Below are positions 1 through 46,523 of a DNA stretch of 64,000 bases, one piece after another. This DNA comes from Akkermansia muciniphila (lineage in GTDB: Bacteria > Verrucomicrobiota > Kiritimatiellia > RFP12 > JAAYNR01), in contig CAMBQN010000007.1 of the NCBI GenBank assembly GCA_945870025.1, positions 1 to 64,000 of the forward strand. The letters run 5' to 3'. The translations under genes and the position numbers were made by a program. The notes below the pieces were generated by a model that saw only the letters and a program-made list of their open reading frames with translations, made no database searches and was not told the DNA's origin. Numbering within the stretch: the stretch's first letter is position 1; every line of letters starts with the position of its first letter.

Positions 1-130
1 TGACAGCCGCTATCGGGATCCAAATCGGGATCGGGACCGAAATCGACGAGAAAGCAAGGAATTCGACCCCGATAGCGATAGCGATTTCGATTTCGACTGT
101 ACAGATGTGCCATAATTAGAAATGCTGGCC
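1..130. mobile_element. Truncated (by window edge) copy of the 46222-46363 element
   Basis: Matches 46237-46366 with one mismatch seen. Confidence 0.95.
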
Positions 131-227
131 GACGGACGCATTACCCTTCACGTTCCAGCACGCATCTGCTAACATACGGCTTGGAATTATACGTTCAGGT
201 TCAGAAACGGACAAAGGGGGGATCAAC

Positions 228-3773: not shown

Positions 3774-3882
3774 GATCCTAATCGTAATCGTAATCGTAAT
3801 CGTAATCCGTTTTCCACCAGGAGATTAAAATCAAGATTAGGATTACGATTAAGATGGCAATAGCCCCTTAAGTAAGCGCCAT
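3774..3882 (-). repeat. Degenerate hexamer (AATCGT) hairpin element with conserved flank; reverse-oriented copy of the element at 19491-19596
   Basis: Arms (TAATCN)n and (NGATTA)n around a short loop; flank TTAAGATGGCAATAGCCCCTTAAGTAAGCGCCAT matches the reverse complement of 19491-19525. Confidence 0.85.
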
Positions 3883-19465: not shown

Positions 19466-19490
19466 AGAGGTCGAGTAGAGCCGGGTCTGC

Positions 19491-19596
19491 ATGGCGCTAA
19501 GTTAAGGGACTATTGCCATCTTAATCGTAATCGTAATCTTAATCTTAATCTGCTGTTGTAGAACGGATTACGATTAAGATTATGATTATGATCGGA
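19491..19596 (+). repeat. Degenerate hexamer (AATCGT/AATCTT) hairpin element, copy of 3774-3882
   Basis: Flank ATGGCGCTAAGTTAAGGGACTATTGCCATC shared with the reverse complement of the 3.8-kb copy; variable hexamer arms. Confidence 0.85.
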
Positions 19597-19673
19597 AGCG
19601 ATCGCTTAACATAACGCCGGACGCAACATAAAGCGCCATTCGGGCCAGGTCTGAATGACGCAATTTAAACGAC

Positions 19674-19807
19674 TTTGAGCGAATGTTCGTTCCGCCCTCC
19701 GTGTATTCACGGGTGAGGCGGACGAAACATTCGCTGATTATTTGCGGTTTTCGCGAAAAGTTTTCATTTTTTGTAGCAGGGGCTCCCATTTAGATGCGTT
19801 CGCCCTG
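19674..19807 (+). repeat. Dispersed ~135-bp hairpin repeat, copy A
   Basis: Aligns along its length to the reverse complement of 32628-32763; internal inverted repeat AGCGAATGTTCGTTCCGCC / GGCGGACGAAACATTCGCT. Confidence 0.9.
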
Positions 19808-31581: not shown

Positions 31582-32697
31582 ATGACCGCACACTATCAGA
31601 TTGCGATGGAGCGAATCCGGGCTTACCTGCTCGATCAACAGCCGCTGCGCGACACGCGCCTGCCGTCGGAGCGGGATTTCGAGCAATTGTTGGGGATCAC
31701 CCGTCCGGCGGTGAACAAGGCGATCGCCTGCCTGGTCGCAGCGGGCGTGCTGCGCCGGGAGGGATACAAGCTGTACGCCGGCGCGCCGCCTCCCCTGCCC
31801 GGCCCGCCACCCGTGCACGTGCTGATCCCGCGCGGCATCATGGTCAACCAACTGGGGCCGCTGGAGGCGGCCCATGATGTGGCCCGCGAGCGCCTCAGCC
31901 ACGCGATCCCGGTGCTGACTCGGGACGCGGCCGATGAGCGCGAGGCGCTCGTCCGGCTCCTGCGCGAAAAGATCAACGGCTTCGTGATCTGGCCCAATGG
32001 CCCGGACTGCAACGTCGATCTGCTCACCCAGTTCCGACAGCAGGGCACGCCGTTCGTGGTCTGCGATCAGGACGTGGACGACTTCGACTTTGTCGGGATC
32101 GACAACGAGTTGGGGGCCGCGCTGGCTGTGCGGCATTTGGTCGCGCAGGGCCACCGAAACCTCGCCTACCTCACCCGACCGCGGACCTTACCCAGCCTCG
32201 TCCGCCGCTGCGCCGGTTATCGCAACGCCTGCCAGGTTGCCGGACTGCAGGCGGCCGCCGATCAGGTCATTGATGTGGCCTCCTTCTCCGAAGCGCATTC
32301 CGTGGAATCCTTGGCCGCGATGCGTAAGCGTTACCCCAAGGCCACGGCCTTTGTGGCCAGCAACGACATCATCGCCCTGCAGGTGATCGCGACCGCCCAA
32401 GCCGCCGGACTGCGCATTCCGAAAGATCTCTCGGCCGTCGGGTTCGACGACATTGCCGCGGCCGCGCAGGCGACGCCGCCCCTAACCACCATCCGGCAGG
32501 ATTTCTACGAGATCGGCTACCTCGCAACGGAGCTGCTTTATCAGCGCCTCACCGCGACGCCCCCGCGCGACCCGCTGCAGTCCGTGCGCATGCGACTCCA
32601 GCCCCGCCTGATCAGCCGCGGATCCGTCAGGGCGAACGCATCTAAATTTCTGCCCCTGCTGCAACAAAAAGAACACTTTTCGCAAAAACCGCAATAA
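31582..32697 (+). CDS. GntR-HTH/LacI-type sugar-binding transcriptional regulator; C-terminus encoded by dispersed repeat
   Basis: N-terminal wHTH (LPSERDFEQLLGITRPAVNKAIACLVAAGVLRR) plus periplasmic-binding-like domain (FDDIAAAAQATPPLTTIRQDFYEIG). Confidence 0.85.
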   Translation: MTAHYQIAMERIRAYLLDQQPLRDTRLPSERDFEQLLGITRPAVNKAIACLVAAGVLRREGYKLYAGAPPPLPGPPPVHVLIPRGIMVNQLGPLEAAHDVARERLSHAIPVLTRDAADEREALVRLLREKINGFVIWPNGPDCNVDLLTQFRQQGTPFVVCDQDVDDFDFVGIDNELGAALAVRHLVAQGHRNLAYLTRPRTLPSLVRRCAGYRNACQVAGLQAAADQVIDVASFSEAHSVESLAAMRKRYPKATAFVASNDIIALQVIATAQAAGLRIPKDLSAVGFDDIAAAAQATPPLTTIRQDFYEIGYLATELLYQRLTATPPRDPLQSVRMRLQPRLISRGSVRANASKFLPLLQQKEHFSQKPQ

Positions 32698-32763
32698 ATC
32701 AGCGAATATTTCGTTCGACTCACCCGTGGATACACGGACGGCGGAACGAACATTCGCTCAAAA
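32628..32763 (-). repeat. Dispersed ~135-bp hairpin repeat, copy B
   Basis: Reverse-complement match to 19674-19807. Confidence 0.9.
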
Positions 32764-32900
32764 CCTTTATTATTGCGTCAACCCACCACCAATCCGGAAG
32801 CGCCACAAAAATAGGTTTGATGTCACGCCCGATTTCGGCTAATATAATACGCCTTTTATGACAATTTCCGCACGCGTGACCGTCGAACAAGGAAAATCGC

Positions 32901-37543: not shown

Positions 37544-37660
37544 CCTCACAGCCTCACAACCTTATAACCTCACAGCCTTACAGCCTAGAACCCTCACAGC
37601 CTCACAGCCTTACAGCCTAGGACCCTCACAGCCTTACAGCCTTACAGCCTCACAGCCTTT
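37544..37660 (-). repeat. Right arm of octamer (CCTYACAG) array flanking the four-helix-bundle gene
   Basis: About 14 degenerate CCTCACAG/CCTTACAG units, inverted relative to the left arm, with higher-order ~32-35-nt periodicity (CCTAGAA/CCTAGGA). Confidence 0.95.
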
Positions 37661-40577: not shown

Positions 40578-40717
40578 TAGGCTGTGAGGCTGTAAGGTTG
40601 AAAATGAACCGGTTACGGTTAGATTCGCACGCACCCCATGGTGAACCGACCCCATTTGCATAACCGATTGCCATCCAAACCTTACCGCCTTACAGCCTTA
40701 CAGCCTCACAGCCTTAC
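40578..40717. repeat. Solo octamer (AGGCTGTR/CCTYACAG) hairpin without ORF
   Basis: taggctgtgaggctgtaagg ... ccttaccgccttacagccttacagcctcacagcc. Confidence 0.9.
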
Positions 40718-46221: not shown

Positions 46222-46363
46222 CAGCAATTCTAATTATGACAGCCGCTATCGGGATCCAAATCGGGATCGGGACCGAAATCGACGAGAAAGCAAGGAATTC
46301 GACCCCGATAGCGATAGCGATTTCGATTTCGACTGTACAGATGTGCCATAATTAGAATTGCTG
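46222..46363. mobile_element. 142-bp MITE-like element with perfect 17-bp TIRs and hexamer (GATCGG/GATAGC/GATTTC) interior
   Basis: CAGCAATTCTAATTATG ... CATAATTAGAATTGCTG; second copy at 1-130. Confidence 0.9.
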
Positions 46364-46430
46364 GCCCGGGGCCAGCGTTTACTTGTGTCGGCGTTTACTT
46401 GTCGCCAGCCGGGGAGACATGGTAAGCTGC

Positions 46431-46523
46431 TGGGGTCTGGGGTTCAGGATGGAATATTTTCGTTTTTTTCCTGAACCCTGATCCCTGAACCCCGAAACCT
46501 GAACCCTGAAACCCGAAACCTGC
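46431..46523. repeat. Degenerate heptamer (CCTGAAC/CCTGAAA) hairpin array
   Basis: tggggtctggggttcagga ... tcctgaaccctgatccctgaaccccgaaacctgaaccctgaaacccgaaacc. Confidence 0.85.

Follow-up and report, generated by a model that had tools for sequence, protein, structure and literature searches.

A dispersed 142-bp repeat with a hexamer-phased hairpin, very probably a MITE of an ISNCY-annotated insertion-sequence group

What kind of sequence is the 142-bp unit at 46222..46363 (+ strand) of the window, by which we mean the whole 64,000-nt stretch of DNA analyzed, and how did a near-identical copy come to lie at the window start? The unit could be a transposed element, a hairpin kept by selection, or part of a duplicated segment. 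The host assembly is a MAG of 59 contigs and 2.76 Mb, 81% complete, and the first base of its contig C7 is position 1 of the window.

The 46222 element and its family

The element is bounded by a left terminal inverted repeat (TIR), CAGCAATTCTAATTATG, at 46222..46238 (+) and its reverse complement, CATAATTAGAATTGCTG, at 46347..46363 (–). Both are perfect over 17 bp, and the preliminary description had placed them exactly. At up to three mismatches, the window holds three TIR-like matches, versus 0.03 in shuffled windows. Between the TIRs lie a left arm at 46248..46283 (+; ATCGGG ATCCAA ATCGGG ATCGGG ACCGAA ATCGAC) and a right arm at 46307..46330 (+; GATAGC GATAGC GATTTC GATTTC). The arms pair with each other in predicted folds and carry the hexamers that had been claimed for them. 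Folding of the single strand gives much greater stability than folding of dinucleotide-shuffled controls (z = –6.0 as DNA, –6.3 as RNA). The element is non-coding; an ORF check of 46222–46363 found none of 80 aa or longer. A class II fructose-bisphosphate aldolase gene and a CAAX-protease-like gene, divergently oriented, flank the intergenic region that holds it. Arrays of 7-mers of the CCTGAAC type lie just downstream, at 46470–46522.

A search of the host genome for TIR pairs, as had been suggested, returned 129 TIRs at two or fewer mismatches, versus none for a reversed control pattern. From fetched stretches of the genome, 56 elements were parsed, 18 of them with both TIRs perfect. They occupy dispersed sites and form at least two subfamilies with a common TIR. 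Subfamily A, the window type, makes up the majority; subfamily B (∼10 copies) has the same TIR around other hexamers (GGGGTCGGGGTCGGTATCGG...), and type C is a single copy. Subfamily A lengths fall mostly in 6-bp steps (124, 130, 136, 142 and 148 bp), and an extra ATTCTA hexamer occurs inside some TIRs. Among the 23 subfamily A copies of 142 bp, mean divergence is 2.0% from the consensus and 3.7% pairwise, and the 46222 copy is identical to that consensus. Since several contig ends fall within copies (C7, C15, C18, C34 and C40 start or end in one), the real copy number is probably higher. The element thus interrupts the assembly, and the family merits masking or naming in genome annotation. 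No match to the element was found in plasmid and phage records, and a literature search on the TIR start gave only papers of apparently unrelated content. A chimeric-looking unit in a genome of the same genus (G001, L181 1463–1606) resembles subfamily C in its left half and the reversed left arm of A in its right half, which suggests recombination within the hairpin.

Flanks carry the signature of insertion. Target-site duplications of 9 or 10 bp (one mismatch allowed) were seen at 26 of the 56 copies, against ∼0.5 expected from shuffled flank pairings. Duplications of 9 bp account for 18 elements (12 exact; 0.39 expected) and those of 10 bp for eight (four exact; 0.13 expected). Flank matches of 7, 8 or 11 bp gave no signal among the same 56 elements. 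The other 30 copies have no duplication at this stringency; several match over 9 bp at two mismatches, as expected if duplications decay. Flank exchange between copies, tested as a cause of absent duplications, was not found. Inspection of flanks, also suggested earlier, thus bears out target-site duplication for the family but not for the 46222 copy. There the flanks (CAAGGGATT / GCCCGGGGC) show no recognizable duplication and the element sequence itself is pristine; a neighboring deletion or rearrangement is possible.

Copies avoid genes, and insertions are mostly intergenic: 12 of 29 copies overlap an ORF, often close to its edge, versus 87% of random positions. In the same-genus genome G001, the flanks of one copy (L013) are continuous without the element, the immediate target having diverged. 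No clean empty site emerged when 50 flank pairs were compared with ∼400 kb from the sister species, most of the other pairs being too diverged.

A copy with only two differences in 142 positions, and with its own duplication (ggaaaagac), occurs in G008, a genome from a different family within the host's order. Contamination was rejected as its source: the contig matches G008's own repeats and a congener (G003, 74%), whereas its matches to the window genome are short (74–76%), plus a 26-base repeat stretch. A binning error is likewise unlikely. Sequence comparison therefore suggests, as the most likely history, that the element was transferred horizontally between families in recent times, after the hosts split, and this makes it useful for learning how MITEs cross host families. 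The same genome has another repeat of ∼130 bp in dozens of copies (L138 894–4500, query ∼2396–2528), with inverted ends at ∼2388–2414; the 26-base stretch is the only part that matches the window genome.

The hexamer-phased interior

In copies from the whole genus and family, the hexamers largely conserve their ATCG skeleton and vary in the NN dinucleotides. As an alternative to a MITE, the unit could be a hairpin with a regulatory or structural role between genes, kept by selection (a terminator, an RNA-stability element or a protein-binding site), and would owe its many copies to transposition only secondarily. The strong folding fits this alternative. So do the mostly intergenic sites, yet selection against gene disruption already predicts them, and convergent gene pairs, which a terminator role would favor, flank only one of 17 intergenic copies. 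Within subfamily A, substitutions are more frequent in the TIRs (3.2%) than in the interior (1.6%), which is not a clear pattern of constraint. Consensus folding of divergent copies gave a covariation term of +0.39, with 6 of 29 pairs changed on both sides, weak support for a selected RNA, and Rfam returned no family match within the window. Also in favor of selection, ATCGNN-skeleton hairpins recur outside the family, both in another genome of the order, where these TIRs are absent, and inside a second MITE-like family with different ends. Overall, we consider it improbable that a selected function, rather than transposition of a MITE, accounts for the repeat.

The hairpins without CAGCAATTCTAATTATG were found in G003 (L277, L292 and L293), where they are apparently intergenic; that genome has zero TIR copies at one or fewer mismatches. 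The second multicopy family lies at 19488–19622 and 3781–3882 of the window (also L303–L308, L312, L313 and L291). Its ends, GCGCTAAGTTAAG / CTTAACTTAGCGC, are unrelated to CAGCAATTCTAATTATG, with GAATG/CATTC flanking, and some copies have 10–11-bp duplications (e.g. aaacaccgag, aggcccgtccc). Its interior is likewise hexamer-phased, with ATCTTA/ATCGTA hexamers in inverted arms, and it has 66 partly overlapping matches in the host genome. Because the hexamer hairpin is found in this second family and, free of TIRs, in G003, it is not specific to one transposon. Insertion-sequence ends may have captured hairpins that were already there, or else the hairpins are regenerated by slippage. One could go further and view the (ATCGNN)n hairpin as a cargo module that is retained or independently regenerated in this lineage and possibly serves transposition or the host, rather than as filler. 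We regard this as unlikely; if true, the module might, for instance, bind a protein or form a hairpin at mRNA ends.

Transposase-bearing elements with the same ends

The exact 17-mer TIR was found in at least 105 GTDB genome stretches, from Desulfobacterota, Kiritimatiellota, Cyanobacteria, Chloroflexota, Gammaproteobacteria and others. Many of these matches are short TIR-bounded elements of 80–350 bp with unrelated interiors and flanking 9-bp duplications (e.g. taaggtatt, ccaagccca, tatccccat). TIRs around unrelated interiors make this a good case for insertion-sequence ends recruiting local DNA into new MITEs. ABC-transporter ORFs beside some foreign TIRs were dismissed as neighbors by coincidence only.

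The same ends also bound insertion sequences of 1.6–2.0 kb with one DDE transposase, in the host phylum, in a Gammaproteobacterium and in closed cyanobacterial plasmids; 9-bp duplications flank four of them. An element of 2,018 bp from the order of the window genome (L190) has an intact 476-aa ORF, and one of 1,645 bp (L188) encodes 486 aa. In the Gammaproteobacterium (L140; 1,808 bp), the gene is frameshifted and the duplication is ctatgacac. Complete elements with exact 9-bp duplications lie on plasmids of Calothrix (L295, GAAATATAC), Anabaena cylindrica (L296, GGCAACGAC) and Nostoc edaphicum (L301, GGTAATCCC). Remnants occur as well: Pontiella sulfatireligans (L090) retains the 3' part of the transposase, and in a sister species (L217) a decayed transposase tail (FGHGEKHLANTLASLNIFAFL...) precedes the TIR. 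TIRs of the complete insertion sequences mostly differ from the MITE TIR at one to three positions.

An autonomous partner with the same TIRs, which the preliminary description had proposed to look for, is thus present in related and unrelated genomes but was not found in the host MAG. There, a search with queries from other families, in an assembly that is 81% complete and broken at repeats, detected no relative of the partner transposase. Two host matches to DDE_Tnp_1 (L166, L167) were rejected as partners, being fragments of another transposase with no TIR nearby.

The partner protein matches DDE_Tnp_1 and DDE_Tnp_1_assoc weakly, with intact proteins scoring below the curated cut-offs, and no NCBIfam family model reached cut-off for it. 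One relative (45% identity; Gloeothece) is annotated as an ISNCY family transposase. These matches bear on another alternative, a repeat of the REP/BIME type that a Y1 tyrosine transposase (RAYT) would mobilize. Such repeats share the palindromic, intergenic and multicopy character of the element, but its TIRs are long and perfect, its target duplications measure 9–10 bp, and the transposases linked to it match DDE models. To our knowledge, single-strand Y1 transposition yields no target duplications of this kind. We judge this origin very improbable.

The data instead show a set of common TIRs, 9–10-bp duplications, dispersed and mostly intergenic sites, and same-ended transposase elements elsewhere. 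On this basis, the 46222 element is very probably a non-autonomous MITE of the ISNCY-annotated DDE insertion-sequence group; its MITE-like character had already been proposed in the preliminary description from sequence alone. Most likely, it was or is mobilized in trans by the transposase of partner insertion sequences. In the proposed mechanism, that transposase would be supplied by another element that is now lost, decayed or unassembled in the host. It would bind the 17-bp ends, then excise or copy the unit, which would be joined to staggered cuts 9–10 bp apart; gap filling would leave the duplication. The palindromic hexamer interior would travel as passenger sequence, and replication slippage would be the simple explanation for its 6-bp shifts in length.

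The closest known systems are cyanobacterial ISNCY-annotated insertion sequences, such as that of Gloeothece verrucosa plasmid Cy782202 (WP_013335080.1), with relatives in Anabaena, Calothrix and Nostoc plasmids. They share the TIR core of the present element (CAGCAATTCTCATTTTG, compared with CAGCAATTCTAATTATG here), and three plasmid copies have 9-bp duplications. Unlike those elements, which span 1.77–1.89 kb and carry a transposase gene, the unit here is 142 bp and non-coding. The IS4 family is similar in that its transposase is of the DDE type and its duplications span roughly a helix turn (∼10 bp, versus 9–10 bp here), but its signature is Y(2)R(3)E(6)K (PMC2266710). In our transposase alignment (A2), the invariant residues are G351-R352-x-R354-W355-x-I357-E358 and K366, with G in place of Y and a spacing of E(7)K where IS4 has E(6)K. 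The partner transposase thus lacks the IS4 signature, although the duplication length fits.

A precedent for a bacterial MITE with internal tandem repeats is BrickBuilt of Porphyromonas gingivalis, which is also multicopy and intergenic and shares its TIRs with resident insertion sequences (PMC4596501). The tandem units of BrickBuilt are 23 nt long, its ends are of the IS5 family and its short duplications vary (PMC4596501), whereas the element here has 6-nt units in an inverted hairpin and 9–10-bp duplications. Nezha (Zhou et al. 2008), which PMC10969869 and PMC3733652 cite as a MITE of cyanobacteria, is a lead to a possible relative, as cyanobacteria also carry transposase-bearing partners of the present element. 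Compared with the cyanobacterial ISNCY-annotated insertion sequences, IS4 and BrickBuilt, the MITE family appears to be new and its kind ordinary; the six-base-patterned hairpin is unusual.

The copy at the contig start and other window repeats

The second window copy spans 1..127 (+) and is cut off where contig C7 begins. Its right TIR, at 111..127 (–), has one mismatch. The left TIR is supplied by contig C40: the first 149 bases of the window overlap exactly with the reverse complement of the C40 start, which runs on through that TIR. A target-site duplication flanks this copy, with its right half, GCCGACGGAC, at 128..137 and its left half, GCCGGCGGAC, on C40. The overlap and the flanking duplication indicate a complete copy that was inserted on its own and is not the margin of a duplicated segment. 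It looks partial simply because C7, and with it the window, starts inside the element. The one mismatch to the 46222 copy that had been reported is real, and the truncation is an effect of the contig cut: positions 1–130 and 46237–46366 are 99% identical, with a sole difference in the right TIR (agaaatgctg versus agaattgctg).

Such identity over 130 bp could arise if both copies belonged to a larger duplicated segment or had been equalized by gene conversion, but we give this idea almost no credence, since similarity ends at the element edges, the flanks of dozens of copies are unrelated, and joining C40 to C7 reveals a 10-bp duplication specific to the copy at 1–130. The earlier proposal of recent copying or conversion therefore holds for copying, as a MITE, and finds no support for conversion, given that every copy has its own flanks; with 56 parsed copies at different sites, a pair confined to one segmental duplication is excluded.

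The window contains further repeats. Arrays of 8-mers (CCTCACAG/CCTTACAG) lie at 37544–37659 and 40680–40717. An inverted pair of 115-nt repeats, at 19656–19770 and 32666–32780, is 86% alike across a distance of 12.9 kb and is possibly another dispersed repeat family.
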